Source of the DNA: Opitutia bacterium
GTDB lineage: Bacteria > Verrucomicrobiota > Verrucomicrobiia > Opitutales > Opitutaceae
Direction of reading: 5' to 3'
Length of the DNA: 64,000 nt
Assembly (NCBI GenBank): GCA_016217545.1
Contig: JACRHT010000017.1
Span: forward strand, 310,001 to 374,000
The notes beneath the pieces are model-generated. The model saw nothing but the letters and a program-made list of their open reading frames with translations. It ran no database searches and was not told the DNA's origin. Position numbers and translations under genes: made by a program. Shown here piece by piece: positions 29,541 to 49,442 of the stretch (its first letter is position 1; every line of letters begins with the position of its first letter).

Positions 29541-29652
29541 GCGCACGACGAAACGCCCTCCGCGCCCCGCCGCAAGCCAGCGCGCGGCGACGGCGGGAAG
29601 TTTCTGACGAGGCGAAGCGGGCGCACCCACGGTGGTTTGCAGGGCGGAGCGC

Positions 29653-33229: not shown

Positions 33230-34768
33230 TCAGGGATTCAGCCGCGCGGGACCGGAGCGAAGCCGGGCCTCGAGTTGCGCGCGCACTGCTGCGTGCGCAG
33301 GGTCGTCCGCGAGATTCCGGGTCTCGAGCGGATCGGCGGCGTAGTCGTAGAGTTCCACCGCGACCCGCTCCCCGGCGAGGCTCCAGCCCCGCCGCCATTC
33401 GATGAGCCGGTAGTCCGCCGTGCGCACGGCATGGCCGATCACGAGTTCCTTGCGCGACTCGTCCTCGAACGTCCATTTGCGATCGAAGACATGGAAAACG
33501 GCGTCCTTCCACGCCCGACCGGGCTCGCGCAGCACCGGAGCGAAGCTCGTGCCGTCGGTCACGGGGAGTCGCGTGATGCCGCACAGTTCCACGAGCGTCG
33601 GCAACACATCGACCGTCTCGACTAGCGCGGCGGAACGGGTGCCCGCTGTCGTGAGACCGGGAGCGCGCACGATGAGCGGCGAATGCGCCGCCTCCTCGAA
33701 ATTCGTCTGCTTTCCCCAGAGGTTCAGATCGCCCAAGTGAAAACCATGGTCGCCCCACAGCACCACGATGGTGTTCTCCGCGAGGCCTTCGCGTTCGAGC
33801 GCGTCGAGCACGCGGCCGATCTGCGCGTCGACGAAGCTCACGCACGCGAAATAGCCGTGGCGGATCCAACGCGCCGTCGCTTCCGGCATCTGCTGCGCCT
33901 CCCAGCCGCCCTTCGGCAGCGGCGTGTGTCCGTCGTAGTCGTAATTGTGGAAATTGGGATTGTTGCTCCAGGCGATCGCCGGCACATCGCGCGGCGCGCG
34001 GGGATTCGCAGCGAGCGGCAGCTTTTCGGGGTCGTAGAGATCCCAGTAGCGCTTCGGCGCGACGAAGGGGATGTGCGGCTTGTGGAAACCCACCGCGAGC
34101 ATGAACGGCCGGCCGTCGGACTTGAGACACGCGAGTTGCGCGATGGCGTCGTCGGCCAGTGCGCCGTCCATATAGGCGCTGTCCGGCTGGTCGACGCCCT
34201 CCGCGATCGGGGCGCCGCCGGGCAGGTCGTTGTCGTCGCCGCGATTGCCACCGCGGGCGCGCTTCGCTTCCTGCCAGGCTTTCAACTTCGCGTCGTTCGC
34301 CGGATCGCCGTAGCCGCGGCCTCGATCAGTTTTCTGCAGGACGTCGAACGTGTCGCTGAGCACGCCGCCTTCGACGTGCCAGATTTTTCCGAGCGACACG
34401 GTGGCATAGCCCGCGGCTTGGAAGGTGCGCCCCCACGGCTGCGCGCCCGGCACCTTTTCCCACACCGGCGGGCCGTAGGTTTGGTGCGTGCGCTCCGGAC
34501 TCAGGCCGGTGAGCAGGGCGACGCGGGACGGGATGCAGACCGCGAACTGCGTGTAGTGCCGCTCGAAGACCTCGGCCGTGCGCGCGAAACGGTCGATGTT
34601 CGGCGTCTTGATGAACGCGCTGCCGTAGCAGCCGAGCTCGGGCCGCAGGTCGTCGACGGCGATGAAGAGCACGTTGGGCCGGGTCGGCGTAGCGGCTCCG
34701 GCGATGCCCCACGCCCCGGCCAACAGCGCGGTCGCCCAAGCCCGTCGTGAATTGGAACGAGCGCGCAT
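33230..34768 (-). CDS. Exported Cys-type sulfatase (iduronate-2-sulfatase-like, S1 family)
   Basis: The 512-residue protein has a signal peptide (about residues 1-26, ...AWGIAGA) followed by NVLFIAVDDLRPELGCYG, the S1 metal-binding Asp pair in the iduronate-sulfatase style. The formylglycine site is CIPSR (Cys78), a canonical CxPxR. Other markers are YATVSLGKIWHVEG, GFHKPHIPF, LWGDHGFHLGD (metal and His) and NLWGKQTNFEE. It hydrolyses a sulfate ester on a glycan in the periplasm after Cys-to-FGly conversion. It follows the other exported sulfatase by 7 bp and precedes the Asp-box and FGE genes. Confidence 0.92.
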   Translation of the reverse strand: MRARSNSRRAWATALLAGAWGIAGAATPTRPNVLFIAVDDLRPELGCYGSAFIKTPNIDRFARTAEVFERHYTQFAVCIPSRVALLTGLSPERTHQTYGPPVWEKVPGAQPWGRTFQAAGYATVSLGKIWHVEGGVLSDTFDVLQKTDRGRGYGDPANDAKLKAWQEAKRARGGNRGDDNDLPGGAPIAEGVDQPDSAYMDGALADDAIAQLACLKSDGRPFMLAVGFHKPHIPFVAPKRYWDLYDPEKLPLAANPRAPRDVPAIAWSNNPNFHNYDYDGHTPLPKGGWEAQQMPEATARWIRHGYFACVSFVDAQIGRVLDALEREGLAENTIVVLWGDHGFHLGDLNLWGKQTNFEEAAHSPLIVRAPGLTTAGTRSAALVETVDVLPTLVELCGITRLPVTDGTSFAPVLREPGRAWKDAVFHVFDRKWTFEDESRKELVIGHAVRTADYRLIEWRRGWSLAGERVAVELYDYAADPLETRNLADDPAHAAVRAQLEARLRSGPARLNP

Positions 34769-34775: not shown

Positions 34776-36275
34776 TCAGTCGGGTTCGTTTTCTGAATCG
34801 CGCAGCTTGGGGCTGGGCGGCGCCGGCGGATTGTTCGAGCGGTTGGTGATCCCGGCCGGCAGAGCGGCCTTCCAGCCCGCGTGCAACTGCCGCGCCAGCT
34901 CGGCGAGCAGGACGGAGCGCCCCGGCTGATCGGCGAGATTGATGGTTTCGTTCGCGTCGTCCTGACGGTCGTAGAGTTCGCAGGCGGTGACGGCGCCGCT
35001 CTTCTTGTCGCGCCATTCGACGTAGCGATAGCGGTCCGTGCGGATGGCGTAGCCCTCGACCGTGTTGCGGCGGGGAAATTGGCTGAAGGCGGCCGTCTTC
35101 CACGGCGTGTCCGGCTTCGCGAGCAGCGGCTTGAAGCTCGTGCCCTCGAGGTAGTCCGGCACCGCGAGGCCGCAGAGGTCGAGCAGCGAGGGGTAGATAT
35201 CGACGTATTCCACCAGCGCGTTCGAGCGCTGCGCGGCGGCGAATCCCGGCGCGCGCACGATGAGCGGCGACCAGGTCGAGCGTTCGTAGTTGGTCGTCTT
35301 GCCCCACATGCCGTGATCCTGGAGATGCCAGCCGTGATCGCCGATGAAGACGACGATGGTGTTGGCCGCCGCGCCGGATTTTTCCAGCGCCTCGAGCACC
35401 CGCCCGACCTGCGCGTCGACGAAGCTCACGCAGGCGAAGTAGTCGCGCCGCAACTCGCGTTGCTGCGCCTCCGTGACCTCATCGCTCGGATAACCCGCGA
35501 ACTTCGTGATGGCGTGGTGCGAGGTCGCGTATTCCGGCACGCCGGCGTTCGCCTGCGGGTTGGGTGAGATCGGCACGGTGTCGCGGTCGTAGAGATCGGC
35601 GTATTTTTTCGGCGCGACCCACGGCAGGTGTGGTTTCTGAAAACCCACGGCGAGGAAGAACGGCTCGTCGAGCTTCGCCACGCGGCCGATGGTCTCGACC
35701 GCGGCGTCGGCGATCTGACCGTCCTGATAGGCGTCGTCGGGCAGGTCGCCGAATTCGGACACCGGCGACTGTCCCTTCGCGGCGTCGCCTTTCTTTCCAC
35801 CGGTGCGAGCGATCGTCTCCGGCAGCACGTAGTAACCGGCCTTCGGTTTGAAATGCGGCTCGGAGAGCGGCTCGATGAGCCCGTGATGCACTTTGCCGAA
35901 GGTGCGCACGTGGTAGCCCTGCTCCATGAAGTGCCGCATGAGCGAGGGCTTCTCCTTCAGGAAGGTATCGACGAAATATTTCGTGTAGGGGTAGTCGACG
36001 CCCGTGGTGTCCGGGCGGCAGCCGGTGAGAAAGCTGGCGCGCGTCGCCGCGCAGACGGCCTGCTGCACGTAGGGACGCTCGAACAGCGTGCCGGTCTTCG
36101 CGAGGCGGTCGATGTTCGGCGTGTGCATGTAGTCGGCGCCGTAGCAGCCGAGTTCGGGCCGCAGGTCGTCGGAGACGATGAACAGCACGTTCGGGCGCTT
36201 CGGCCCGGCGGCGAGCGCCGCCGTCGCGGTCAGAAGCGCGAGGGCCGGGGCAAGGATGCGAGGTGACTTTTTCAT
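34776..36275 (-). CDS. Exported Cys-type sulfatase (iduronate-2-sulfatase-like, S1 family)
   Basis: The 499-residue protein has a signal peptide (residues 1-23) and then RPNVLFIVSDDLRPELGCYG. The FGly site reads CAATR (Cys75), the less common C-x-A-x-R variant. Further family markers are YHVRTFGKVHHG, VGFQKPHLPWVAPKKY, FIGDHGWHLQDHGMWGKTTNYE and a C-terminal ELYDRQDDANETINLAD. It is a paralogue of the 33230-34768 protein. Both lie downstream of the TonB receptor and are expected to act on the same exported substrate class at different sulfate positions. Confidence 0.92.
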   Translation of the reverse strand: MKKSPRILAPALALLTATAALAAGPKRPNVLFIVSDDLRPELGCYGADYMHTPNIDRLAKTGTLFERPYVQQAVCAATRASFLTGCRPDTTGVDYPYTKYFVDTFLKEKPSLMRHFMEQGYHVRTFGKVHHGLIEPLSEPHFKPKAGYYVLPETIARTGGKKGDAAKGQSPVSEFGDLPDDAYQDGQIADAAVETIGRVAKLDEPFFLAVGFQKPHLPWVAPKKYADLYDRDTVPISPNPQANAGVPEYATSHHAITKFAGYPSDEVTEAQQRELRRDYFACVSFVDAQVGRVLEALEKSGAAANTIVVFIGDHGWHLQDHGMWGKTTNYERSTWSPLIVRAPGFAAAQRSNALVEYVDIYPSLLDLCGLAVPDYLEGTSFKPLLAKPDTPWKTAAFSQFPRRNTVEGYAIRTDRYRYVEWRDKKSGAVTACELYDRQDDANETINLADQPGRSVLLAELARQLHAGWKAALPAGITNRSNNPPAPPSPKLRDSENEPD

Positions 36276-36323: not shown

Positions 36324-38714
36324 TCAGAACGAGAGCGTGTTCGTCCACTGCACACTGCGCGGCTCGGTGTAGCGCACGGAGCCGCCGTTCGTGTAGCGGT
36401 CCTGCACATCGAGCACGTTGCCGATGCTCAGCTGCGAGCGCCAGGTCACACGCTTGCCGACTTTGACGCGGTAACCGACGAACACGTCCGCGACCGTGCT
36501 CTCGTCGAGGTAGACATTGACGCCGTTGACGTTCGCGAAGAACGGCTGGCTGCGATACTTCAGCGCACCGCCGACGTTGAATCCCTTGAGCGGGCCGTCC
36601 GCGAAGGCGTAGCGCGTGAGCAGGTTGAACGCGTATTTTTTCCCGCCCTGGAAGCGCCGGCCGACGCTCGACGGATCGGTGGCCGAGGCGGTGATCTTTG
36701 CGTCGGTGTAGGCGAAGCCGCCCGATACCGTCCACTGCGGCGTCGGGTCGACGTCGACTTGCGCCTCGTAGCCCTTCGAGCGGCCGGTTTGTCCGGGCAC
36801 GCTGACGACGCGCGAGACCGGCAGGCCGGTGACGGGATCGTTCGTGGTGATCGTCTTGTTCTCCGCGATGTTGGTCTTCTCGATGTCGAAGGCGGACAGC
36901 TGGGCGTTCACCCGCGCGTCCCACAGATCGAGCTTCACGCCGCCCTCGGTGCCCTTGCCCGTCTGTGGCGGCAGCACCTGGTTGTTCTCGTCGAAGCGGA
37001 AGCCGTTCGTGTTCTTGAGCGACTCGGAATATGTCGTGAAGAGCGAGAAGTGCTTCGTGACGTGCGCGAGCGCGCCGAGCGTCGGACTCACGCGGCTGTC
37101 GCTGGTAGTGCGCGCGGAGCCGAAGGTGCGCGTGTTGCCGGCAAAGATCGGGTCGCGCTGCTCGTTGTCGAATTTGTCGTAACGGGCGCCGAGCAGCGTG
37201 CGCAAGCGGCCGTTCAGGTAGGATCCGGACGCGGCGACCAGGCCGGCGTAGGCGTCGACGCGATTGAGATTGTTGCCGTTGTTCGTGAGCGGACGGTAGC
37301 CAGTCCCAGCGAGGCCGCTCGGATAGGCGACCACGGCGAGCCGGTCGTTATCGAGCGCCCCGGGAGTGAGCGTGAAGACTTCGGTCACGGCCGCGTTCGT
37401 CGCGAGGGTGTAGAGTTCGTCGTTGATGGAGTCGACATCGTGGCGGTTGTAGTCCGCCGCGGTGATGAGGCGCTGGTGCGTCCAGCCGAGATCGAGTTCG
37501 TAGGAGGAGAACAAGCGCACACCGCGCGCGCCCTCATCGATCGTGCGGCGACCCCAGCTACGGTTGACCGTGAACACGCCGGTGCTCGCCGCGTAGCGCA
37601 CGGTGCCGGTATTGCGCGCGACGTCGTTGAGGAAGTTCATCTGCTGGTAGTTGGCGGTGAGCAGCAGTTGCCAGTTTTGTGTCGGCACGAATTGGATTTC
37701 GCCGAACACGTTGCGATAGCGGCGGCGACCAATGTCGTCCGGCCCCTCGAACTTCGTGCCGATCGGCACGATCGATTCTGGCACGGGGTAACCGAGCAGG
37801 CTTTTCAGCGTGCCGTTCGCCGGCACGCGGGCGTAGAGGCTGTCGGTGAGATACGCGAGCAGGCTGGCGGGGATCGCCTTGGCCTGGTCGGCCGTGGTGA
37901 AGTTGAACGTCGGCACCGTGCTCGGGCCGCGCACGCGCTGTTCGCCGTATTCGATGTCGCCGCGCACCGTCACGCGACTGTCGAACAGGCGCAGGCCGCC
38001 GGTGAGAAAAACGTTGCGGCGCAGATCTCCGGTCCAGTGCTCCCAGCTGCCTTTGCTGTGGTAGAGGCCGAGCGCGCGGAGGGCGAAGCGCTTGTTGCCG
38101 GCGTTCACGTCGATGGTCGCGCGGTTGAGATCGTCGGAGCCGGCGCGATACGAGAGCGCGGCGCTGCGGTTGTCGAAGCGGGCGCGGACGGTCACGACGT
38201 TGAGCAGACCGCCGGGGTCCGCCTCGCCGTAGATGAGCGAATTTGCGCCACGGATCACCTCGATGCGGTCCGCGTTATAGGTGTCGCTCGGCAGGTAGCG
38301 GATGAAGAAATTCGTGAGCTGCGTGTCGCTCTGAAAGCCGCGAAGGTTGACCGCGCGGTCGCTGTTCGTCTGTTCGGTGCTCTCCGCGCCGACGAGCAGC
38401 GGGCCGAGGTTGCGGAAATCCGTGACGTTGAAATCCGCGAGTTGCTGCGGGTTGATGACCTGGATCGAGAGCGGCAGATCGCGCACTTCCTCCACCGTGC
38501 GGCTGCCGCTGAGCGTCTGCGCCGTATGGTAGCTGGGCGACGTGGTGGCCGAGACCTCGAAGACGGAGAGTTGCACGACTTCTTCGCCGGGTTTGGCCGG
38601 CGGAGTCGTCTGTGCGCACACGGCGGACGCCGCGCAAAGCGCGAGAAACGGGATCGCGCGGCGCGCGGTGCGGGGACGCGACGCCAGTCGGGGGTGAGGG
38701 GCTTGGGGTGACAT
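36324..38714 (-). CDS. TonB-dependent outer-membrane receptor
   Basis: The ATG at 38714 gives 796 residues with an export signal (ARRAIPFLALCAASAVCA, cleavage near 35). A TonB-box-like VVQLSVFEVSA leads to a plug domain with VEEVRDLPLSIQVIN, VNLRGFQSDTQ and DRIEVIRGANSLIYGEADPGGLLNVVT. The barrel ends in a Phe (TLSF), the outer-membrane insertion signal. It is probably the import gate for a sulfated or mannan-derived oligosaccharide: it heads the sulfatase run and is divergent from the XylR-type regulator. No SusD gene is present, as is usual in this phylum. GTG at 38717 is an alternative start. Confidence 0.9.
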   Translation of the reverse strand: MSPQAPHPRLASRPRTARRAIPFLALCAASAVCAQTTPPAKPGEEVVQLSVFEVSATTSPSYHTAQTLSGSRTVEEVRDLPLSIQVINPQQLADFNVTDFRNLGPLLVGAESTEQTNSDRAVNLRGFQSDTQLTNFFIRYLPSDTYNADRIEVIRGANSLIYGEADPGGLLNVVTVRARFDNRSAALSYRAGSDDLNRATIDVNAGNKRFALRALGLYHSKGSWEHWTGDLRRNVFLTGGLRLFDSRVTVRGDIEYGEQRVRGPSTVPTFNFTTADQAKAIPASLLAYLTDSLYARVPANGTLKSLLGYPVPESIVPIGTKFEGPDDIGRRRYRNVFGEIQFVPTQNWQLLLTANYQQMNFLNDVARNTGTVRYAASTGVFTVNRSWGRRTIDEGARGVRLFSSYELDLGWTHQRLITAADYNRHDVDSINDELYTLATNAAVTEVFTLTPGALDNDRLAVVAYPSGLAGTGYRPLTNNGNNLNRVDAYAGLVAASGSYLNGRLRTLLGARYDKFDNEQRDPIFAGNTRTFGSARTTSDSRVSPTLGALAHVTKHFSLFTTYSESLKNTNGFRFDENNQVLPPQTGKGTEGGVKLDLWDARVNAQLSAFDIEKTNIAENKTITTNDPVTGLPVSRVVSVPGQTGRSKGYEAQVDVDPTPQWTVSGGFAYTDAKITASATDPSSVGRRFQGGKKYAFNLLTRYAFADGPLKGFNVGGALKYRSQPFFANVNGVNVYLDESTVADVFVGYRVKVGKRVTWRSQLSIGNVLDVQDRYTNGGSVRYTEPRSVQWTNTLSF

Positions 38715-38766
38715 CACCGGAGCTTAGCGGTTCGAGGCGGTCGGATTGAATGAGTTCTTTCGGCGA

Positions 38767-38779
38767 AATTCTGTGAATT
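38767..38779. promoter_or_regulatory. Small dyad AATTC-TGT-GAATT in the divergent receptor/XylR spacer
   Basis: A perfect 5-bp inverted repeat with 3-bp spacer, AT-rich in a GC-rich background, lies between the two divergent genes (about 50 bp from the receptor ATG and 90 bp from the regulator ATG). It is a possible operator for the XylR-type protein or part of a promoter; only one copy is seen. Confidence 0.3.
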
Positions 38780-38869: not shown

Positions 38870-40054
38870 ATGAGCCCCGCCAAACGTGTCGCCGTCGTCA
38901 TCCGCACGCGCTTCGAGGAGAACCAGGCGATCCTCCGCGGGATTGCGCAGTTCGAGCAACGGCACGGGCCGTGGCTCGCCTTCGTCGACGATCAGGCCGT
39001 GAGCGTGCAGGAGCCGGACTGGTTGTTCCGCCAGGAATGGGACGGCGTGATCTGCGGACCAACGAGCGCGGCCATCGCCCAGCAGTGCCGGCGCCGGCGG
39101 ATTCCGCTGGTCGACCTGCGCGATAATCCCGAGGCGTTCCCCGGCGTGCCGAAGGTGCGGCCCGACAACGTCGCGATCGGACACGTCGGCGCAGAGCACC
39201 TGCTCGAGAAAGGTTACGCGCACTTCGGTTTCTGCGGTTTCGCCAACACCTCGTGGTCGCAGGAGCGGCGCCACGGCTTCGTCGAGGCGGTGACGCTCGG
39301 CGGCCAGCAATGCGACGTGCTCGAGACCGATTATCCGGGCAAGCAGGCGCCCGACTGGAACAGCGCGCAGGAAGCCGTGATCGTGGACTGGCTGCGGCGC
39401 CTCCCTCGCCCTGTCGCCGTCATGGCGTGCAACGATCTGCGCGCCATCCAGGTCATCAACGCCTGCCAGCAGGCCGGCATCGTCGTGCCCGAAGAGGTGG
39501 CCGTGCTGGGCGCGAACAACGAATCGTCGCGCTGCGAGCTCTGCCACCCGTCCTTGTCGAGCGTGGCCGTGAACGCTAACCGCATCGGCTACCGCGCCGC
39601 GGAGTTACTGCATGCGGCGATGAAGGGCGAGGCGGCGAAAGAGTCCGGCGAACTCGTCGAGCCGCTGAAGGTCGTTGCCCGCCGCTCAACCGACGTCCTG
39701 GCCATCGGCGACCCGAAAGTCGCGCGCGCGCTCCACTATATCCGCGAGCACGCCTGCCGCGGTCTCACCGTCGACGAAGTGGTGCGCGAAGTGCACGTCT
39801 CCCGCAGCGTGCTCGAACGGAAATTCCGCAACTACCTCCGGCGTTCGCCGCAAGCGGAGATCCGCTACGCGCAGGTGCAGCGCGCGAAGGAATTGCTCGC
39901 CGAGACCGACGCCTCGATCGCCGAGATCGCCGAGGCGACCAGCATCGAATACCCGGAATATCTGTGCGTGCTTTTCAAGCGCATCACCGGCGAGACCCCG
40001 CGTCGCTATCGCGAGAAGGCGCGCAGCTGGAAAGGCGACGCCGCTCAGAGCTAG
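38870..40054 (+). CDS. XylR-type activator: LacI-like sensor fused to AraC DNA-binding domain
   Basis: The 394-residue protein starts directly with a periplasmic-binding-protein-like sensor (RVAVVIRTRFEENQAILRGIAQF, GVICGPTSAA, NVAIGHVGAEHLLEKGYAHFGF, VMACNDLRAIQVINACQQAGI). It ends with an AraC double helix-turn-helix (HYIREHACRGLTVDEVVREV, SRSVLERKFRNYL, ASIAEIAEATSIEYPEYLCVLFKRITGETPRRYR). This is the arrangement of E. coli XylR and of many Verrucomicrobiota sugar regulators. It likely senses a monosaccharide or disaccharide and activates the divergent receptor-sulfatase operon and the GH130-sulfatase-GH26-GH130 genes that follow it. Confidence 0.9.
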   Translation: MSPAKRVAVVIRTRFEENQAILRGIAQFEQRHGPWLAFVDDQAVSVQEPDWLFRQEWDGVICGPTSAAIAQQCRRRRIPLVDLRDNPEAFPGVPKVRPDNVAIGHVGAEHLLEKGYAHFGFCGFANTSWSQERRHGFVEAVTLGGQQCDVLETDYPGKQAPDWNSAQEAVIVDWLRRLPRPVAVMACNDLRAIQVINACQQAGIVVPEEVAVLGANNESSRCELCHPSLSSVAVNANRIGYRAAELLHAAMKGEAAKESGELVEPLKVVARRSTDVLAIGDPKVARALHYIREHACRGLTVDEVVREVHVSRSVLERKFRNYLRRSPQAEIRYAQVQRAKELLAETDASIAEIAEATSIEYPEYLCVLFKRITGETPRRYREKARSWKGDAAQS

Positions 40055-40123
40055 CGAAAGAGTTTCAGATTCCTGCCGCTCAAGCTCATGGCCGCCGCCA
40101 CCGCCGGAGCCTAGACTCGGTCC

Positions 40124-41128
40124 ATGCCCCATTCCTCATCGAAGCCGAGCAAGCGCGTGCTCGAGCGACATCCGGCCAATCCCATCCTGCATCCCCGCGG
40201 TATGCCGTTCCCCTGCGCCGGCGTCTACAACTCCGGCGTCGTGAAGACCACGGACGGCAACTACATCATGGCCAGCCGCGTCGAGGAACCGAGCAAGCGC
40301 CACCACGCCTGGATCTCGCGCAGCCGCGACGGCGTGCAGTTCACGCCCGACGCCGAGCCGCTGCGTGTCCTCTGCGACACCGAGCGGCAGGCTGAATTCG
40401 CCGACGCCACCAAGATCGCCCCGCCGGGTCTCGGCACCTGGTGGGATCCGCGCATCAACCCGCTCGAAGGCGAGCACTACCTGACCTACGCCGCCGTTTC
40501 GAAGAGCGGCTGCCGCATCGGGCTCGCGCGGCTCGCCCCGGATTTCCGCTCGGCGCAACACGTCAGTTTTCCGCACCACATCCAGAACCGCAACGCCGTG
40601 CTCTTTCCCGAGAAGATCGGCGGCCTCTACTGGATGCTCCACCGGCCGCAGCATCCGAACGGTAGCGGATCGATCTGGATCTCCGCGTCGCCCGACCTGC
40701 ATTTCTGGGGACACACCCGCCCGGTCGCCCATCCGCACCGTTTCTGGGAACACAAGAAAATCGGTCCCGCCGCACCGCCGATCCGCACCGCGGAGGGCTG
40801 GCTGATCGTTTACCACGGCGTTTTCCCTCACTGCAACGGCGTCAACTACGCGGCGGGCGCGATGCTGCTCGACCTCGAGCAGCCGTGGCGCGTCATCGCC
40901 CGCGGCGCCCACCCGATCCTTTGGGTCGAGGAGCCCTACGAGATGATCGGCCAAGTGCCGAACGTGGTCTTCCCCGGCGCGGTGATTCCCGAAGCCGACG
41001 GCAGCGTGAAGGTTTACTACGGCGGCGCCGACTACGTGCAGTGCCTCGCCACCGGCAGCCTCGCGGATCTGATCGCGTCGGCGCGCGCCACCGACGGCGC
41101 CGACGCGCCGGGCAACGGTGCGGCATGA
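40124..41128 (+). CDS. GH130 phosphorylase or mannosidase
   Basis: The 334-residue protein is a five-bladed GH130 propeller: HPANPILHP, VYNSGVVKT, the general-acid region WWDPRINPLEGEHYLTY (Asp108), RNAVLFPEKIGGLYWMLHRPQ, KIGPAAPPIRTAEGWLIVYHG and the terminal VYYGGADYV. GH130 enzymes phosphorolyse, or in some subgroups hydrolyse, beta-mannosides. This copy resembles the mannooligosaccharide phosphorylase side of the family rather than the mannosylglucose phosphorylase at 43759. The Glu that usually precedes DPR is a Trp here. Cytosolic. Its stop codon overlaps the sulfatase start (ATGA), so the two are translated together. Confidence 0.85.
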   Translation: MPHSSSKPSKRVLERHPANPILHPRGMPFPCAGVYNSGVVKTTDGNYIMASRVEEPSKRHHAWISRSRDGVQFTPDAEPLRVLCDTERQAEFADATKIAPPGLGTWWDPRINPLEGEHYLTYAAVSKSGCRIGLARLAPDFRSAQHVSFPHHIQNRNAVLFPEKIGGLYWMLHRPQHPNGSGSIWISASPDLHFWGHTRPVAHPHRFWEHKKIGPAAPPIRTAEGWLIVYHGVFPHCNGVNYAAGAMLLDLEQPWRVIARGAHPILWVEEPYEMIGQVPNVVFPGAVIPEADGSVKVYYGGADYVQCLATGSLADLIASARATDGADAPGNGAA

Positions 41129-42633
41129 CCTCCCGTCCGCACATCATTCTCATCCTCACGGACCAGCAGCGCGCCGACACGATCGCCGCCCAAGGCCATC
41201 CTTGGATGCGCACGCCGCACCTCGACGCGCTCGTGCGGGGCGGCGTTTCCTTCACGAACTGCCATGCCGCCGGCGCCACCTGCACACCCTCGCGGGCCGC
41301 GCTCTTCACCGGCATGTATGCGCACAACACCGGCTGCTATTCCTTCAACAACTGGGCGCACCAGCGGCTCTGGGTGCAGGATCTCGCCGACGCCGGCTAC
41401 TACTGCGTCAACCTCGGCAAGATGCACCTCCAGCCGCGCGACGCCTCCGCTGGTTTTCACGAGCGCCTGATCGTGGAGAATCCCACCTCGACCTCACGGG
41501 ACGGCGGTAACGGCGACGATGCGTGGGGGCGTCACCTCGCCTTGCACGGTCACGCCCGGCCCAACTTCCGGCACCGCACCGACCCGGAGTGGACCAGAAA
41601 ATTTCAAGCCGTGCCGTGGCACCTCGACGAACGCCTCCACAGCGACGTCTTCACCGGCGACTCCGCCGTCGCCTGGATCGAACGCGAAGCCGATCCCACG
41701 CGCCCCACATTCCTGCAAATCGGTTTTCCCGGCCCGCACGAACCGTGGGATCCGTTGCCGCGCCACCTCGCCGCCTACGACGGACGCGAAGCGGAATTCC
41801 CCGCGCCCGTGGATCGGCCGCACGATTTCGAGCGCGCTCCGCCGCAACACGCCGCCGTCCGCGATTTCCACGCGCAGGTCGACCACGAGTCGCGCATCGA
41901 TCTCGCCGGCGCGACCGACGCGGACATCCGCCGCATGCGGAAGCACTACTACGCGAAGGTGACGCTCGTCGACGAGCAGATCGGCCGCGTCGTCGCCGCA
42001 CTCGAACGAAAAGGCCTGTTGGCGAACAGCGTCGTCATCGTGACCTCCGACCACGGCGAGATGCTAGGCGACCACGATCTCGCCTACAAATGGCTGATGT
42101 TCGACCAGGTCACGCACGTGCCGCTCGTCGTGCGCGATTTTCGCCCCGGGGCACCGGGCGGCTGCGTCGTCCCGCAATTGGTCTCGCTCATCGACCTCGG
42201 TCCGACCGTCTGTGAACTCGCGGGCGTCACTGTGCCCGCGCGACTGGAAGGGCAATCGCTCGCCGGCTATCTGCGCACCGAACCAGTGCCGGCCCGGCGC
42301 CACGTGTTTTGCGAGGACAACTACCTCCTGATGATCCGCTCTGCGACGGCGAAGCTCGTCCTCTACCACGGCCAGCCCGAAGGCGAACTCTACGATCTCC
42401 GGAGCGATCCGCACGAATCCCGCAACCTCTGGGACGATCCCACCCATGCCGCGCTGAAGCAAGAACTCCGCAACGAACTCCTCGCCTGGCTCGGCGCGAG
42501 CTGCCTCCACACGTGGGGCTACAAGGCGCGCGCCGAATCCGCCGGCGGCGCCTACGGTGTGCGCTGGCCGCGCCCCGACGACAAGCGTCTGCACGGGCCC
42601 AACTACCAGCCGCGCGTCTTGCCCCACCTTTGA
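41125..42633 (+). CDS. Cytosolic Cys-type sulfatase in the mannan operon (S1 family)
   Basis: The start ATG at 41125 overlaps the GH130 stop; the product has 502 residues and begins directly with PHIILILTDQQRADTIAAQG, without a signal peptide. The FGly site is CTPSR (Cys53). Further S1 markers are LGKMHLQPRD, GFPGPHEPWDP, VTSDHGEMLGDHDL and a C-terminal ELYDLRSDPHESRNLWDD. It should hydrolyse a sulfate ester on an imported sugar or oligosaccharide. Its tight linkage to GH130 upstream and GH26 downstream (overlaps at both ends) argues that desulfation is a step of beta-mannan catabolism. The missing signal peptide suggests maturation by the cytosolic anSME (56264). Confidence 0.92.
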   Translation: MTSRPHIILILTDQQRADTIAAQGHPWMRTPHLDALVRGGVSFTNCHAAGATCTPSRAALFTGMYAHNTGCYSFNNWAHQRLWVQDLADAGYYCVNLGKMHLQPRDASAGFHERLIVENPTSTSRDGGNGDDAWGRHLALHGHARPNFRHRTDPEWTRKFQAVPWHLDERLHSDVFTGDSAVAWIEREADPTRPTFLQIGFPGPHEPWDPLPRHLAAYDGREAEFPAPVDRPHDFERAPPQHAAVRDFHAQVDHESRIDLAGATDADIRRMRKHYYAKVTLVDEQIGRVVAALERKGLLANSVVIVTSDHGEMLGDHDLAYKWLMFDQVTHVPLVVRDFRPGAPGGCVVPQLVSLIDLGPTVCELAGVTVPARLEGQSLAGYLRTEPVPARRHVFCEDNYLLMIRSATAKLVLYHGQPEGELYDLRSDPHESRNLWDDPTHAALKQELRNELLAWLGASCLHTWGYKARAESAGGAYGVRWPRPDDKRLHGPNYQPRVLPHL

Positions 42634-43754
42634 AAAATTCCGTCCTCCCCTTCCTCGTCGGCACCTGCCTTGCGCTCAGCCTCCGGGCTCAGCCGATCGA
42701 CGAGCATGCGACCGCCGAAACACGCGCGCTCTTCGCGAATCTCGGCACCGTCGCGCGCGACCACATCCTCGTCGGCCATCACCACACGACAGCGCGCGGC
42801 GCCGGTTGGCGCTGGCAAGCCGAGCGCTCCGACGTGCGCGTGCTCGTGGGCGATTTTCCGGCGGTGCACAGCTGGGACTTCAGCCTGCTCGTCGCGGAGC
42901 CCGATCGTCGCGCCGATGCCCGGCGCGACATTGTGGCGGCCTTCGAGCGCGGCGCCGTCATCACGCTGAGCTGGCACGCCGCCAACCCCGTCTCCGGCGG
43001 CGGCTACAACGACCACACGCCCGCGGTCGCGGCGATCCTGCCGGGCGGCAGCCACCACGAAAAATTCCTCGCGATGCTCGACGACCTCGCCGGTTTTCTC
43101 GCCACGCTCCGCGATAAAAACGGCCGCGCGGTGCCGGTGATTTTCCGTCCGTGGCACGAACACACCGGTGCGACGATGTGGTGGGGTCAGCCGTATTGCA
43201 CGAAAGACGAATTCATCGCGCTGTGGCGCCTCACCGTCCATCACCTGCGCAACACCCGCGGCCTGCACCAGCTGCTCTGGGCCTATTCGCCCAACCGCCG
43301 CGCCTCGCCCGAAACCTACTTCGAGCGGTATCCCGGCGACGAGTGGGTCGACCTGCTCGGCTACGATTTCTACTCGAAGAGCGACCTCGCGCGCGCCGTG
43401 CCGTGCCTGCGCCTCGCCGTCGCCGAGGCGGCGAAGCGCGGCAAGCTCGCCGCACTCACCGAGACGGGTCCGCAGGCCGGCTGGCGCCAGAACGGCAAGC
43501 CCGACTACTTCACCGGCGAACTGCTCCCGCTGTTGCGCGACGATCCCGCGCTGCGCGGTCTCGCCTACGTGCTCTTCTGGCAGAACGCATCGGAGGAACA
43601 GCACTGGATCCCGCTCCCCGGCGAGCCCGGCGCGGAGGATTTCAAAAAATTCCACGCCGATCCGTTCACGCTTTTCGAGCGCGATCTGCCCCGGCTCTAC
43701 ACGCTGCCGCCGGACTCCGCGGCACCCGCAGCCGCGCCGAAGCCGCAGTCCTGA
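42630..43754 (+). CDS. GH26 beta-mannanase/mannosidase, exported, TTG start
   Basis: The most likely start is TTG at 42630, overlapping the sulfatase stop as TTGA. It gives 374 residues with a signal peptide ([20 protein letters not shown]). No ATG exists before the mature domain in this frame. GH26 motifs are complete: [35 protein letters not shown] with acid/base Glu177, LLGYDFY, and ALTETGPQ with nucleophile Glu278. The enzyme cleaves beta-1,4-mannan or glucomannan, probably in the periplasm. It is followed 4 bp later by mannosylglucose phosphorylase, the enzyme that uses Man-Glc from glucomannan. Confidence 0.9.
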
Positions 43755-43758
43755 TTTT

Positions 43759-44757
43759 ATGCCCATCACCGTTTCCGCTCCCGCCCTGCCCAACATCCCG
43801 TGGGAAGAGCGTCCGGCGAACTCCTCGGAGGTTCTCTGGCGCTTTTCCGGCAATCCGGTCATCCGCCGCGACCACCTGCCGACGTCGAACAGCATCTTCA
43901 ACAGCGCGGTCGCGCCGTTCCGCGGCGGCTTCGCCGGCGTGTTCCGGGTCGACAACCGCGCCGTGCAGATGCGCATCCATGCCGGCTTCAGCTCCGATGC
44001 GCTGAGCTGGGACATCGCGCCGCAGCCGCTCACGCTCGAAGGCGCCGATCCCGAACTCGGCGGCATGGTCTACGGCTACGACCCGCGCGTAACGCCGATC
44101 GACGGCCGCTACTACGTCACCTGGTGCAACGGCTATCACGGCCCGACGATCGGCGTCGCGTGGACGGAAGATTTCAAAAAATTCCACCAACTCGAGAACG
44201 CCCTGCTGCCCTACAACCGCAACGGCGTGCTCTTCCCGCGGCGCATCGGCGGCCGCTACGCGCTGCTCAGCCGGCCGAGCGACAACGGGCACACCGCATT
44301 CGGCGATATTTTCTACAGCGAGAGCCCCGACCTCGAATTCTGGGGCCGCCACCGCCACGTGATGAGCCCCGTGCGCATCGAGAAGGGCTGGCAATCGCTC
44401 AAGATCGGCGCCGGCCCCGTGCCGATCGAAACGTCCGAAGGCTGGCTGCTGCTGTATCACGGCGTGCAGCGCTCCTGCAACGGCTACGTCTACTCCTTCG
44501 GCGCCGCGCTGCTCGATTTGGAAAAACCCTGGAAGGTGATCGCGCGCGCCGCGCCGTATCTGATCGCGCCGTGGATGCCCTACGAAACCACCGGCGACGT
44601 GCCGAATGTCTGCTTTCCCTGCGCCGCGCTCGTCGATGGCACGACCGGCCGCCTCGCGATCTACTATGGCGGCGCCGATACCGTCACGTGCGTCGCGTTC
44701 GGACGCGTGAACGAGCTCATCGCCTTCATCCGCGCGAACAACGAGCGGGCGACCTGA
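43759..44757 (+). CDS. 4-O-beta-D-mannosyl-D-glucose phosphorylase (GH130_1)
   Basis: The 332-residue protein matches the well-characterised mannosylglucose phosphorylase group nearly motif for motif: [46 protein letters not shown] with general acid Asp108, [82 protein letters not shown] and [13 protein letters not shown]. It splits mannosyl-beta-1,4-glucose with phosphate into mannose 1-phosphate and glucose in the cytosol. It completes glucomannan use and saves one ATP. It is the last gene of the plus-strand operon and is followed by a strong hairpin. Confidence 0.93.
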
Positions 44758-44828: not shown

Positions 44829-46568
44829 TCACGGCGGCAGCGGCGCGTCGATCGTGCGCAACGAATAGTCCGGCAGCGTGCCCGGCGGCGTCCAAGTCGA
44901 CGATGGCGTCAGGATGATGTCGTCCACCGCGACGCCGGAGCGATTCATCCAGAGGTTGAACGTGTGCAATCCCGCGGTCGTCACGGTCACGGACGCATAC
45001 GGCGCGACGTTGCCCTGGCCGCGCACCCAGCGCCACGAGGTGGGCACGTCGGAACTGAGTTTCTGCGACGAAGCCGTGCCATCGAGGCCGAACCAGACTC
45101 CCGTCGACGTCGTGCCATTTTTCAGGCGAACCCAAACGTAATACGTTCCCGTCTGCGCGAAGTTCACGCGAAAATCCATCCGCGGCGCATTGGCGGCGCT
45201 CTTCGAGACATCGTCCGCGGGCAGCGCGCGCACGGCGCCACGGCCGAGCGCATTCGCCACCGACAAATAGCTCCAGTCGTGTGCCGGTCCCGCAACGGCA
45301 GCGCCGTAACTGACGGCCTCGATGCGCACGAGTCCGGTGGTGTCGGGCTGCCACACCATGAGCTGGCCGCTCACGGCCTGCGCGCCGACGGTGGTGTAGA
45401 GCGCGGTGACGTCGGTGTTGCCGACGATCTTTCGGCCGGGCTGCCCGGCCGTGTAGCCCCAGCGCGTCCACGGCAGATCAGCGCGTTCGGCGACCTCGAT
45501 CAAGTCGCGCTCGTAGCCGAGTTGATCGTCGGCCCGGATATCGGCGCCGAACTGGTCGAGATAGAGCGGCACGGCATTGCGCGCCGAGAAATCCACCGCC
45601 CACTGCAGATACCAAGCGAGGAAATTCTGGCACAGCATCAGGGGAAACTTGGTCGGCTCCTTCCGGCGCAGGTTGAAGACCTTCTCGGTGTCGCGTGGCA
45701 GCACGAGGTCGTTGCCCGCGTCGTCCTTGTCGCCAAGCTGGAGCGTGATCAGGGGCGTGAAATCCGTCTGCGTGGCCTGCGGGTAGGTCGCATTACCCGG
45801 CGGCACGCCGTCTGGAGCGCTGCCATCCTGAATCCACGGCTTGGGCATCAGCACGTTCACCTCGTAGATCAAGCGACCGTGGTAGGAGGCGAGGGCCGTG
45901 TAGTAGCCATCGTAACGGAATTGCATCGTGTCGTAGTTGAAATCGGTTCCGACGAAAAACGGCGTCCAGGTATCGCCCGCGCCGCCACTCGCGACCGGCG
46001 CGCTGATTTGGTCCATCAGCGCCTTTTGGAAGGTGGTCAACACGCTCCACGGCTCCGAATCGAACGCGCTCGCGCTCGGCTCGGCGAGCAGTCCGTAGCC
46101 CGCGACGTAGTCCGTGTCCTTGTAGAGTGCGGCCAGATAGACCCAGGTTTTCTGGAAGGCCAGGTAGGTCGTGCCCGTCGGGCTGTAGAGGTCGCGCAGC
46201 TTGGACGTCGGATCGTCCACCCGCATCTCGAGGACGAACCAGATGCCCGCGCCGGAGAGCGCCTGCACCCAGTCGTCGATCTGGTCGAGGTAAGTCTGCT
46301 TCAAGCCGGAAGCGTGGCCCGAATCGCGCGTGTCGTCGTTCCATTCGATCGGCAGTCGCGCGAAGTTCATCTTGAGGTTGTTTTTCAAGTCCGCGGCCTC
46401 CGTGACGGTCGCGCCCTTCAAATTACCGCCGCGCAACTGGATCACGCGACCGGCGTCGTCGAGGATGATGCGGTCGACGATGGACAATCGTTTCGGCGTG
46501 GCGCTCGCGGTGGTGACAAGAGCAGCCAGCAACATTCCCCGCACGAGACGGACAAAAGCAGTTTTCAT
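44829..46568 (-). CDS. Exported GH5-like protein with altered active site and C-terminal CBM-like domain
   Basis: From ATG 46568 the product has 579 residues: signal peptide (1-23), then a GH5-type TIM barrel with IQLRGGNLKG, FARLPIEW (the conserved Arg71), YVAGYGLLAEPSA (Glu163 where GH5 has the acid/base of 'NEP', but the Asn is Ala), LIYEVNVLMPKPW (Asn238 where GH5 has His) and LYLDQFGAD (Gln339 where GH5 has the nucleophile Glu of 'GEFG'). The C-terminal about 110 residues (YYVWVRLKNGTTSTGVWFGLD, HTFNLWMNRSGVAVDDIIL) resemble the beta-sandwich carbohydrate-binding domain seen at the end of GH115 proteins. It may bind rather than cut glycans. Paralogue of the 47322-49307 protein. Confidence 0.75.
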   Translation of the reverse strand: MKTAFVRLVRGMLLAALVTTASATPKRLSIVDRIILDDAGRVIQLRGGNLKGATVTEAADLKNNLKMNFARLPIEWNDDTRDSGHASGLKQTYLDQIDDWVQALSGAGIWFVLEMRVDDPTSKLRDLYSPTGTTYLAFQKTWVYLAALYKDTDYVAGYGLLAEPSASAFDSEPWSVLTTFQKALMDQISAPVASGGAGDTWTPFFVGTDFNYDTMQFRYDGYYTALASYHGRLIYEVNVLMPKPWIQDGSAPDGVPPGNATYPQATQTDFTPLITLQLGDKDDAGNDLVLPRDTEKVFNLRRKEPTKFPLMLCQNFLAWYLQWAVDFSARNAVPLYLDQFGADIRADDQLGYERDLIEVAERADLPWTRWGYTAGQPGRKIVGNTDVTALYTTVGAQAVSGQLMVWQPDTTGLVRIEAVSYGAAVAGPAHDWSYLSVANALGRGAVRALPADDVSKSAANAPRMDFRVNFAQTGTYYVWVRLKNGTTSTGVWFGLDGTASSQKLSSDVPTSWRWVRGQGNVAPYASVTVTTAGLHTFNLWMNRSGVAVDDIILTPSSTWTPPGTLPDYSLRTIDAPLPP

Positions 46569-46585
46569 GGGAAGGAGAAACAGGC

Positions 46586-46631
46586 GGCACCCCGGAAAAT
46601 CCCGGTCGCGGGGGTGCCAGCCGCGACCGGG
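46586..46631 (-). promoter_or_regulatory. Two interlocking hairpins (possible pseudoknot) before the GH5-like gene
   Basis: In the 76-bp gap between DUF1573 and the GH5-like gene, arm pairs GGCACCCC/GGGGTGCC (46586-46593, 46611-46618) and CCCGGTCGCG/CGCGACCGGG (46601-46610, 46622-46631) are perfect and interlocked: the 3' arm of one lies in the loop of the other. In RNA they would be either alternative stems or an H-type pseudoknot, about 20 bases upstream of the start codon. Confidence 0.5.
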
Positions 46632-46644
46632 AAGGGACAACCCA

Positions 46645-47325
46645 TCAACGCACGAAGAGCGCCGTGCGGAAACGGTGCGCGCGTCCGCTCGGGACGTTCG
46701 TGTGGACGGTGAGCATCGCCTGCGCCGGACGCATGGCCGCCGGCGGGGTGATCGTAATCAGGTAGCGTTGCGGATCGCCGGTGAGCGGCCGCAATTCCGC
46801 GGTGAACAACCCGGCCGGTTCGCAGCTCACGCCCGTCGGCCGCAGGGTTTCACCGGGCGCGACGGTCACTTCGACCGCTTGCGCGGTTGGTTCCGTGCCG
46901 CGCCGCCAGGTGAGCAGGCGCGGCTCCACCACCATCCGCTCGGGAATAGTGACGTCGAGCGTCAGCAACGTCGACGCGGCGCCGACGGCGTCGGTGTCGA
47001 CGTGGACGGTCTTGCGTTGGTGCCCGGTGAGATCGGCGTAGTGCAGCTCGACCATCACGACGCCGGACTCGCCCGGCGCGTAGGTGCGCCGCGTGAGCTC
47101 GACCGCCGTGCACGCGCAAGCGGCGCGCACGGCTTTGATCGTGACCGGCGACGTGCCGTCGTTGCGGAACGGAAACTCCAGCGCGAGCGAAGTAGCGTCC
47201 GGATCGGCGGTCACGTGCCGCTCGGTGGCGGTGAAGGCCAGCTGGCCGCGCGCGCTCGCCGCCGCGAGTAAACCGGCGAGCAGCGCACCGCGAGCGAAGC
47301 GATGAAGAAGGAGGCGCGTTTTCAC
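46645..47325 (-). CDS. Exported DUF1573-domain protein, GTG start
   Basis: The 226-residue protein starts with GTG at 47325, overlapping the stop of the upstream GH5-like gene (GTGA). A signal peptide (about residues 1-28, LLAAASARGQ) is followed by an Ig-like DUF1573 domain: LEFPFRNDGTSPVTIKAVRAACACTAV with its conserved Cys-x-Cys, and YAPGESGVVMVELHY. A second beta domain makes up the C-terminal half. DUF1573 proteins are periplasmic or surface beta-sandwich proteins of unknown function. Here the gene is sealed between two GH5-like paralogues, one of them translationally coupled, so it probably forms a complex with them or presents them. Confidence 0.78.
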   Translation of the reverse strand: MKTRLLLHRFARGALLAGLLAAASARGQLAFTATERHVTADPDATSLALEFPFRNDGTSPVTIKAVRAACACTAVELTRRTYAPGESGVVMVELHYADLTGHQRKTVHVDTDAVGAASTLLTLDVTIPERMVVEPRLLTWRRGTEPTAQAVEVTVAPGETLRPTGVSCEPAGLFTAELRPLTGDPQRYLITITPPAAMRPAQAMLTVHTNVPSGRAHRFRTALFVR

Positions 47326-49307
47326 GGCACCGCCGGCAATTCGATCTGGCGCGCGGAGTAGCCCGGCAACGCAGTGGTGTTCGGATTGTAGCTCGAATCC
47401 GTCGTCAACAGCACCTCATCCACGGAGACGTTGGATTTGCGCATCCAGATATTCAGGGTGTGGAAGCCGCTCGACGGCACACTGACCGAGGCGACGGTCG
47501 TATTCTTCGTGTTCACCCACGACCACGCACTCGGGTTCGCCGAAGCGAGTTCGCCAGCGGTGCCGTTGTCGAGGGCATACCAGATGCCGTTCGATGAAGT
47601 GCCGTCCTTCATCCGCACCCACACGCGGAAAGTCTTCGGGTAAGTGAGCGTGGCCGGGAACTTCACGCGGAAATCCAGCCGCGGCGAAGTGGCGTCGGCC
47701 GGCGTCGTGCCGCCGGCGCCGACCGGCTTGGCGTGCAAGGCGGCCGAATCGATCGCGTTGGTTTCATCGTAGAGTTGCCAGCGGAAGTTATCCGGGATGG
47801 CCGCGATCTGTCGGCTCAGGTGCTCCGCACGGATGCGAGCGACGCCGGTGCCGCTCGAGTCGACGGCGGCATGCGCGAGCACCTCGCCGCCGTCGATCGC
47901 CGTGCCGATGTCCTCGTAGTAGTCTTCGACGTCGGGGTTGCCGTAGATTTTGCGCGAGCTCGATCCGGCGTTGTAGCCCCAGCGCGTCCAGCCGAGGCCG
48001 AATTTCTCCGCGGTCTCGAGCAGATCCTTTTCATAGCTCAACTGCCCGTTCGCCTCCGTCGCCGCGCCGAACTGATCGAGCACGAAGGGGACCTTGTTCG
48101 CCGCCATGAATTGCGTCGCGTAGTGTTGGAGATACCACTCGAAGAACGCGCGATTGAGCAGGCCGGGGATCATCTCCCCGTTGGCATCGACGCGATGCGC
48201 ATTGAACAGCTTTTCCAGTTCCCAGTCTGCGGGGCCGCCGGCGATGGGCGCGATGAGATCGTCATAGTTGGCGAGGGGCGTTTGCGGATAGGTATACTGG
48301 GTGCCGGTGGGACTGCCGGGAATCGTCTTGGCGCCGTAACAGTCGTCCCACACGGGTTCAGGATCGATCGGTATCGCGGTCGTAGTATCGCTCCAACCGT
48401 GCTGAATCCAGGGCTTGGGCATGAGCACGTTCACCTCGTAGATGCAGCGTTCCGGGTAGGCGGCGATCAAAGCGTCGTAATCCGCGTAGCGGAACTGGAG
48501 CGTGTCGTAGTTGAAATCCGTGCCGACGAAAAATGGCGTCCAAGTGTCGCCGGAGCCGTTCGTCGGGTCGCTGATGTGGTTCATCACCGCGAGCTGGAAA
48601 GTCGTGAGTGTGGTCACCGGTTCCGCCGGCGGCGTGTCAGAGGTGCCGAGGCGGCTCGCACTCGGCTCCGCGAGGATACCGTAGCCGGCGATGTAGTCGG
48701 TGTTCTTGAAGGCGTCCGCGATCGCTTTCCAGAAGGCGAGGAACTTCTCGTGCCGTAGCGAAGTGGTGTCGTAGAAATGCCCGTCGCTCTCGTTCGGCTT
48801 GGCCTGTTCGGCATTGGCGTCGCAATCGTTCGCACGCGCCTCGAGATAGACCCAGAGGCCCTGCGCGGTGAGCGCGTTGACCCAGATCTGGGTGAGTTCG
48901 ACGATGTCAGGCACGCTGTTCGGCGTCGCGGTGCGGATAAGTAGTCCCGAGCCGTCGAGCGAGTAGGTGTAAAGATCGACGAGGTCGCCGTTGCGATCGA
49001 GCGTGCGGTCGTCATGGCTCGGGTGGTCCTTGGGAAAGTATTTGAACTCCACCGGCAGCCGCACGCAGTTCATGTGATACCGGTTCTTGATTTCATCCGC
49101 GGCGAAACTGGGCGACAGCGAGCCGTCGTTCGAGTTCACGTTGGCGCCGCGCAGGACGATCGGGCGCTGGAGTTCGTCGTAGATCTGCGTGCCGCGGATC
49201 GTGAGGCGCTTCGGCGTGGCGAAGGCCGCGGCGGTCAGGAGTGAACTCACCAACACAAGGGCGGCGGCGCGTGCCAGGCCGCGAGAGACTATCGCTCGGA
49301 GTTTCAT
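47322..49307 (-). CDS. Exported GH5-like protein with altered active site and C-terminal CBM-like domain
   Basis: From ATG 49307 the product has 661 residues: signal peptide (1-30), GH5-type barrel with IVLRGANVNS, CVRLPVEF (Arg83), YIAGYGILAEPSA (Glu214, preceding Asn replaced by Ala), CIYEVNVLMPKPW (Asn293 at the usual His) and FVLDQFGAA (Gln412 at the usual nucleophile Glu), and a C-terminal CBM-like domain (FRVWVRMKDGTSSNGIWYALD, HTLNIWMRKSNVSVDEVLL). The same three active-site changes occur in the paralogue at 44829, so they are not random decay. The gene follows a sulfatase gene by 135 bp and overlaps the DUF1573 start. Confidence 0.75.
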   Translation of the reverse strand: MKLRAIVSRGLARAAALVLVSSLLTAAAFATPKRLTIRGTQIYDELQRPIVLRGANVNSNDGSLSPSFAADEIKNRYHMNCVRLPVEFKYFPKDHPSHDDRTLDRNGDLVDLYTYSLDGSGLLIRTATPNSVPDIVELTQIWVNALTAQGLWVYLEARANDCDANAEQAKPNESDGHFYDTTSLRHEKFLAFWKAIADAFKNTDYIAGYGILAEPSASRLGTSDTPPAEPVTTLTTFQLAVMNHISDPTNGSGDTWTPFFVGTDFNYDTLQFRYADYDALIAAYPERCIYEVNVLMPKPWIQHGWSDTTTAIPIDPEPVWDDCYGAKTIPGSPTGTQYTYPQTPLANYDDLIAPIAGGPADWELEKLFNAHRVDANGEMIPGLLNRAFFEWYLQHYATQFMAANKVPFVLDQFGAATEANGQLSYEKDLLETAEKFGLGWTRWGYNAGSSSRKIYGNPDVEDYYEDIGTAIDGGEVLAHAAVDSSGTGVARIRAEHLSRQIAAIPDNFRWQLYDETNAIDSAALHAKPVGAGGTTPADATSPRLDFRVKFPATLTYPKTFRVWVRMKDGTSSNGIWYALDNGTAGELASANPSAWSWVNTKNTTVASVSVPSSGFHTLNIWMRKSNVSVDEVLLTTDSSYNPNTTALPGYSARQIELPAVP

Positions 49308-49335
49308 TGGGGAACGAGGGTGGAGGGTATCAGCC

Positions 49336-49361
49336 CTTCGCCGCGGAGACTCCGGGCGAAG
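49336..49361 (-). terminator. Hairpin between sulfatase and GH5-like genes
   Basis: CTTCGCC (49336-49342) pairs with GGCGAAG (49355-49361), and an inner GGAG/CTCC can extend the stem. It lies in the leader of the GH5-like gene, after the sulfatase stop. No clear U-tract. Confidence 0.4.
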
Positions 49362-49442
49362 TGCGCGCAACCTATCCCATCCGCGTCGCGCGCGCATTGT
49401 GAACGCGCGCCTTTCCCCTGCGAACCTGCGGCAGTCCGTCGT

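Follow-up and report, generated by a model that had tools for sequence, protein, structure and literature searches.

A run of five genes in the 5.09-Mb genome of an Opitutia bacterium (Verrucomicrobiota) appears to form the core of a regulon directed at a sulfated β-mannan-type glycan, a reading to which we assign a probability of roughly 0.55. The run lies in a stretch of 64,000 nucleotides (the window; positions 310001-374000 of contig C17) and encodes, in this order, a XylR-type regulator (REG), a divergent member of glycoside hydrolase family GH130 (GH130a), an S1-type sulfatase (SULF), a GH26 enzyme, and a second GH130 protein (GH130b). It is a real conserved unit, larger than first noted and containing one gene that had been mislabelled, and it forms part of a syntenic island that spans about 28.4-57.6 kb of the window. 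Signal peptides, here and below, were judged by eye and not by a predictor. The five genes are as follows.

38870..40054, plus strand: REG, XylR-type regulator with a periplasmic-binding-like sensor (Pfam PF13377, Peripla_BP_3, 135 bits) and an AraC helix-turn-helix domain (PF12833, 64 bits)
40124..41128, plus strand: GH130a, divergent GH130, predicted phosphorylase (PF04041, 143 bits; D108, R156, R174, K212, and H231 kept)
41125..42633, plus strand: SULF, S1-type sulfatase with CTPSR at C53, no signal peptide (PF00884, 156 bits)
42630..43754, plus strand: GH26, TTG start, signal peptide (PF02156, 140 bits)
43759..44757, plus strand: GH130b, predicted β-1,4-mannoside phosphorylase of the GH130_2 (Uhgb_MP/RaMP2) type (530 bits to 4UDG)

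The original prediction, which had been made from the sequence alone, was borne out with regard to this gene order, the CTPSR motif, and the junctions, i.e., an ATGA overlap between GH130a and SULF, a TTGA overlap between SULF and GH26, and a 4-bp gap between GH26 and GH130b; it was also right that the GH26 has a signal peptide and the sulfatase has none, the latter fitting desulfation in the cytosol. By contrast, the claim that the last gene encodes a mannosylglucose phosphorylase of the GH130_1 kind was not confirmed, as GH130b scores 530 bits over 314 residues against the solved structure of Uhgb_MP (4UDG) and 451 bits against RaMP2 (5AYD), compared to only 96 and 79 bits against the mannosylglucose phosphorylases 5AY9 and 3WAS, respectively. 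Also kept in GH130b are the catalytic Asp of the YDPR motif and, at the NRN, SRP, KIG, and YHG motifs, basic residues, some of which presumably bind phosphate. The protein is thus best described as a predicted β-1,4-mannoside phosphorylase of the GH130_2 kind, which works on β-1,4-mannosides (PMC8950772).

GH130a matches PF04041 well above the cut-off (143 versus 26 bits), and its catalytic D108 is invariant across 12 sequences. Its best solved relative is again Uhgb_MP (180 bits), with Uhgb_MS at 126 bits, and its scores of 70 and 66 bits against 5AY9 and 3WAS, respectively, show no close relation to GH130_1. As neither GH130 protein is close to GH130_1, the originally proposed glucomannan route, with phosphorolysis of mannosylglucose (Man-Glc), is not supported. 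GH130 hydrolases of the BT3780 kind lack three basic residues (PMC4599007); assignment of GH130a to this kind was rejected, since R156, R174, K212, and H231 are present and align with basic residues of Uhgb_MP. GH130a is therefore taken to be a divergent GH130 and probably a phosphorylase. The nearest solved relative of the GH26 protein is CjMan26C (241-243 bits), with which its two Glu motifs align, and its PF02156 score exceeds the cut-off, as expected for a β-mannanase. Together, GH26 and GH130_2 point to a β-1,4-mannan as the target.

Conservation and shared promoter sites

The five-gene run was found in three of the 13 genomes of the genus, namely in its own genome and in those of two other species (G040 and G096). 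Both overlaps are kept in G040 and G096; the last gap again measures 4 bp in G040, and it is 3 bp long in G096. When 24 window genes were searched by tblastn against a 39.8-kb stretch from each of these two genomes, 18 matched in G040 and 18 in G096, in the same order, and neither stretch gave a match to the five queried genes that lie beyond the island. A second GH26 gene (GH26B) was present in G096; it had no match in the retrieved stretch of G040, and the gene for GH5-like protein a had none in that of G096. Pairwise ratios of nonsynonymous to synonymous substitution rates (dN/dS) among the three species ranged from 0.04 to 0.19, with no stop codons, for 13 island genes (0.10-0.11 for SULF; the set left out the FGE, BNR, GH5-like, DUF1573, and GH26B genes described below), which indicates purifying selection on the five-gene run in all three species. 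Synteny in three species and these low ratios suggest that the grouping of the genes is more than chance. Conservation of the gene order, named beforehand as a point on which the original prediction could fail, was thus found, in this genus only.

Alignment of intergenic stretches from the three species revealed a block that is kept before GH130a, and the same gapped word before the genes for a TonB-dependent receptor (TBDT) and sulfatase S5. In all, four island promoters share the pattern CAGA-N(4-5)-GCCG-N(6-7)-CTCM, located 34-35 nucleotides (nt) ahead of the start codon.

38750..38773, minus strand: operator-like site, 35 nt before the ATG of TBDT (pattern match)
40066..40089, plus strand: operator-like site, 34 nt before the ATG of GH130a (pattern match)
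50925..50948, plus strand: operator-like site, 34 nt before the ATG of S5 (pattern match)
50864..50887, minus strand: operator-like site, variant CAGA-N4-GCCG-N7-CTCA with the same total length as the strict sites, 35 nt before the ATG of sulfatase S4

The strict form, CAGA-N5-GCCG-N6-CTCMT, matches three times in the window, also when one mismatch is allowed, compared to 0.22 expected matches and no shuffle with three among 100. Genome-wide it likewise has three matches, all upstream of island operons, and its reversed control has none; as the motif was derived from these very sites, the genome-wide tally provides no independent test. In G040 and G096, the strict pattern occurs in the same three places. 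Spacing from site to ATG is 34, 34, 35, and 35 nt for GH130a, S5, TBDT, and S4, respectively, in the window and in G040, and 34, 34, 35, and 36 nt in G096. A TANNNT box is found 6-8 nt before the ATG in all 12 promoters (four in each of three species), which suggests that island transcripts begin at or near the ATG. In a pattern-free control, in which promoters were aligned by their start codons, three of the promoters share 18 identical columns, compared to a mean of 10.1 and a maximum of 17 for 3000 random triples drawn from 28 other window gene starts. A candidate fifth site, which precedes the BNR gene and is conserved across the three species, departs from the pattern and was not counted.

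These shared sites suggest that SULF is probably in one regulon with the TonB receptor and the other sulfatases, and we infer that REG is the protein that binds them. The shared promoter design of the four island operons is a new observation. Of the proposed mannan route, the part that held up is that the sulfatase belongs, as a conserved and apparently co-regulated gene, to a locus of mannan type; its link to Man-Glc phosphorolysis did not hold.

Relatives of the sulfatase and the weight of alternative readings

SULF carries the C-X-P-X-R motif of S1 sulfatases as CTPSR (C53-R57). An assignment as choline sulfatase was rejected, its score against TIGR03417 (196 bits) being far under the cut-off of 433. 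Among solved structures, 7OZ8 is closest to SULF (209 bits, compared to 146 for the next) and is also the first match by fold; the structure model of SULF has a mean predicted local distance difference test (pLDDT) score of 70.8, with 141 of 502 residues below 50, and its overall fold alone was used. 7OZ8 is BT1918, a sulfatase of subfamily S1_46 that acts on 3-O-sulfated N-acetylglucosamine (3S-GlcNAc; PMC10154620). With only 30% identity between the two proteins, the specificity of BT1918 is not transferable to SULF.

This relationship nonetheless raises the alternative that the substrate is a sulfated Man-β-1,4-GlcNAc unit, from N-glycans or similar, with SULF desulfating GlcNAc and GH130b splitting Man-GlcNAc. 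The closest relative of GH130b, Uhgb_MP, is itself a Man-GlcNAc (N-glycan) phosphorylase, so that both enzymes would point the same way; however, two GH26 mannanase-type genes lie in or beside the island, and no α-mannosidase, hexosaminidase, or N-glycan endo-glycosidase was detected among the 37 window frames scanned with Pfam, which do not represent every gene in the window. Given also the low identity of SULF to BT1918, we consider this alternative unlikely.

Outside the genus, 26 loci with a GH130b homologue were available (30 in total). At 11 of these 26, the GH130b homologue has a REG homologue (49-55% identity) no more than 1.5 kb away, and none of these 11 has a sulfatase within 1.5 kb; at locus L134, GPH symporter, REG, and GH130b genes are consecutive, with no sulfatase match. 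The REG-GH130b(-GPH) module therefore seems to predate GH130a-SULF, which looks like an addition. A sulfatase near GH130b was seen at only one of the 26 loci (L091). GH130a relatives (39-51% identity; E 1e-60) occur in 25 of 387 genomes of the phylum outside the genus. A homologue with 69% identity, as compared to at most 51% at the other loci outside the genus, was found at positions 545-1480 of L143, a contig of Candidatus Sumerlaeota, possibly as a result of horizontal transfer; the 5.97 kb of this contig contain no sulfatase.

Of the 28 loci outside the genus that have a GH130a homologue, three carry directly next to it the gene for a different sulfatase (26-30% identity to SULF) without a signal peptide. 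These pairs come from three other lineages (L118, 9372-11746; L125, 4715-7146; L128, 7744-10167), and the sulfatase differs each time. Under random gene order, 0.23 such adjacencies would be expected (P 0.0016), a figure based on sulfatase counts, some of which, near 60, are possibly lower bounds, in the 25 relevant genomes out of 26 covered; if five-fold clustering is assumed, P is 0.11, and the adjacency is suggestive only. In named genomes, 80 of the 570 confirmed GH130a loci were covered; sulfatase model matches were present at four of these 80, with direct adjacency only at L204.

SULF could also be a passenger, i.e., a general sulfate-ester scavenger that sits in a mannan operon by chance, which we regard as very unlikely. 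While the presence of the operon in just three of 13 genomes of the genus is compatible with a passenger, as are relatives of SULF on alphaproteobacterial plasmids that sit amid varied transporter genes, once with nitrate/sulfonate ABC genes a few kb off, the overlaps kept in three species, a dN/dS of about 0.1, and the promoter sites shared with TBDT, S4, and S5 all argue against it; the three adjacencies in other lineages do so as well, except that they are unremarkable under five-fold clustering. Plasmid relatives with 40-42% identity (L223, L225, and L226), from Rhizobiaceae and Aurantimonadaceae, have carbohydrate ABC-transporter genes nearby, and two of them lie near an FGE-family gene. 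A search of viral contigs for SULF gave no match.

Several observations weigh against a sulfated β-mannan regulon. The nearest solved relative of SULF acts on 3-O-sulfo-GlcNAc, and the TonB receptor matches siderophore-receptor models. The relatives of SULF with 50-57% identity occupy five loci (L040-L044; stretches of about 20 kb) in four genomes of the family, and none of these stretches gave a match to GH130, GH26, or REG; three of the five have further sulfatase matches, and one has a GH39 gene. Distant relatives of SULF on plasmids sit amid varied ABC and other transporter genes (four of 631 plasmid records inspected). In the 20-kb surroundings of L091 (L129, genome G012), REG, two GH130b genes, and a GPH symporter are accompanied by a sulfatase that carries a signal peptide. 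With regard to the promoters, the motif was read off them afterwards, and its relaxed form is non-specific, with 12 matches in the genome compared to 11 for its control and, in the G040 stretch, one match that lies at none of the four promoters. All four promoters share 10 columns (control mean 5.0), a value that was reached in two of 1500 draws of gene starts and five of 1500 draws of random positions. Finally, a position weight matrix scan of 14 loci of other genera with REG and GH130b found no such site; the lone weak match, at L129, scores 9.9, as compared to 38.7-48.6 for the true sites and 9.4 for an unrelated locus.

The surrounding island

The remaining genes of the island, most of them syntenic in the three species, are listed below.

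28446..29630, minus strand: FGE-type sulfatase maturase with an apparent signal peptide (PF03781, 263 bits; 272 bits to FGE 6MUJ)
29653..33096, minus strand: BNR/Vps10 β-propeller protein (PF15902, 48 bits; NF045728, 89 bits, under the cut-off of 175); syntenic
33230..34768, minus strand: sulfatase S3, signal peptide (PF00884 match); syntenic
34776..36275, minus strand: sulfatase S2, signal peptide (PF00884 match); syntenic
36324..38714, minus strand: TBDT, TonB-dependent receptor of siderophore-receptor type, divergent from REG (TIGR01783, 156 bits, under the cut-off of 223.5); syntenic
44829..46640, minus strand: GH5-like protein a, secreted (PF00150, 38 bits); not found in G096
46645..47325, minus strand: DUF1573 protein (profile match)
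47322..49397, minus strand: GH5-like protein b (PF00150, 27.6 bits; no match among PDB sequences)
49443..50828, minus strand: sulfatase S4, no signal peptide if ATG 50828 is the start (PF00884, 194 bits)
50983..52878, plus strand: sulfatase S5, signal peptide, start ATG 50983 (PF00884, 165 bits)
52875..54311, plus strand: GPH (MFS_2) glycoside:cation symporter (PF13347, 229 bits)
54407..56248, plus strand: ClC anion channel/antiporter carrying CBS domains, of uncertain role in the system (PF00654, 300 bits)
56264..57565, minus strand: anaerobic sulfatase maturase (anSME; TIGR03942, 497 bits, cut-off 349)
57645..58856, minus strand: second GH26 (GH26B), in or beside the island (PF02156, 125 bits)

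Two starts were chosen among options: for TBDT, ATG 38714 was taken as likely over the GTG at 38717 with which the listed open reading frame begins, and for S4, ATG 50828 was preferred over a longer listed frame because MQPNLVF is common to the three species. The island holds five of the 11 PF00884 matches of the genome, and two of these five sulfatases are without a signal peptide. The locus does not appear to be a polysaccharide utilization locus (PUL) of the SusC/SusD type, as no SusD model matched among the 37 Pfam-scanned window frames and TBDT is of the siderophore type.

The other island sulfatases are only 28-31% identical to SULF, which makes several sulfated positions likely and raises the alternative that a side sugar of a heteromannan (galactose or fucose, for example) bears the sulfate and that SULF cleaves this sugar sulfate after import. 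An α-L-fucosidase gene adjoins the GH130-sulfatase pair at L118, in keeping with such a substrate; on the other hand, no galactosidase or fucosidase was detected among the Pfam-scanned island genes, an argument that is weak because the actions of the GH5-like and BNR proteins are unassigned. On balance, a side-sugar sulfate seems unlikely to be the target of SULF.

The FGE-type maturase retains the FGE Cys pair (FLCSDQYC, aligned with YLCHDSYC of 6MUJ). This maturase, with its apparent signal peptide, and the anSME, of cytosolic type, lie in the same island, possibly one for each compartment. The idea that anSME is exclusive to the island was rejected, as it scores over the cut-off in six of the 13 genomes of the genus, only three of which have SULF. 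At a second site in the genome (G000:C17:1059145-1073565), two sulfatase matches occur together with a partial match to anSME that stays below the cut-off.

GH5-like proteins a and b, both secreted, are 45% identical; LAEP is kept, and the usual nucleophile motif reads LDQFG, at a place where GH5 enzymes usually carry a Glu nucleophile. They may be binding proteins that lack activity, or else a new type of enzyme. A fold model of the GH5-like protein (mean pLDDT 37) was not used. A role of the ClC protein as a sulfate exporter tied to the sulfatases was dropped, as such ClC relatives are common (84 of 200 genomes of the family); the sulfatase model had no match in 30 ClC loci with 1.5-kb flanks, including that of the island, where S5 lies just past the flank. 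The ClC protein encoded beside a sulfatase gene in Falsirhodobacter is only 28% identical to that of the island over 138 residues. A ClC-type gene near sulfatases was also noted at L224 (10442-12247), in an unrelated genome, and its sequence is not closely related to that of the island gene.

A putative route and its relation to known systems

From gene order, conservation in three species, family assignments, and promoter design, which are sequence-based, we infer the substrate, the order of steps, and the mode of transport as follows. REG would sense a breakdown product and activate the four operons via the CAGA...GCCG...CTCM sites. Exported GH26 enzymes would cleave the mannan chain, exported S2, S3, and S5 would strip accessible sulfates, and the TonB receptor and GPH symporter would import short oligosaccharides to the cytosol. 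Sulfates would bar these oligosaccharides from the active sites of the GH130 enzymes, and SULF, perhaps with S4, would clear those that remain. GH130b, together with GH130a for a second end or linkage type, would then release mannose 1-phosphate with phosphate; activation of the sulfatases would fall to the two maturases of the island, FGE-type and anSME. A charged partner in the +1 position has precedent in GH130, as members of this family vary in the +1 sugar and a phosphorylase for mannosyl-glucuronic acid is mentioned (PMC8950772).

Sulfated β-mannans occur in green seaweeds, including a 4-linked β-mannan sulfated on C-2 and C-6 in Codium and mannans sulfated on C-3 from Caulerpaceae (PMC7550628). 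That the regulon is devoted to a mannan of this sort is the most economical interpretation. A stronger version of our proposal, which we consider rather unlikely, is that the island represents the full regulon for a natural sulfated β-1,4-mannan, in which the last sulfates are removed in the cytosol and GH130a is reserved for an end that bears a sulfate or has just been freed of one, i.e., an undescribed sulfated-mannoside phosphorylase route.

Among characterized enzymes, Uhgb_MP is alike to GH130b over 314 residues and differs in its origin, an uncultured bacterium of the human gut, and in its described activity on Man-GlcNAc. We presume that no sulfatase adjoins its gene. The β-mannan PULs of marine Flavobacteriia (PMC6298971, PMC9860051) likewise combine GH26 mannanases, a GH130 phosphorylase, and a TonB-type importer. 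However, those described in PMC6298971 are taken as targeting non-sulfated β-mannan, whereas the island contains five sulfatases and two maturases; the GH130 in PMC9860051, in whose main text words that begin with sulfatase or sulfate are absent, is named a mannosylglucose phosphorylase, whereas the GH130 proteins here are of other types. A diatom sulfated α-1,3-mannan pathway (PMC13063451) also pairs a sulfated mannan with sulfatases and mannosidases, but it involves an α-linked backbone, GH195 and GH92 enzymes, and outer-membrane and periplasmic steps, and GH130 does not appear in the text of that source.

A bacterial route for sulfated β-mannans was not found among the matches listed in the openly licensed literature. 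The island supplies a set of named genes together with a regulator and four sites, through which bacterial use of sulfated β-mannans can be addressed directly. If the proposed reading is true, sulfatases would be tied to phosphorolysis, and each mannose would be retained as mannose 1-phosphate.

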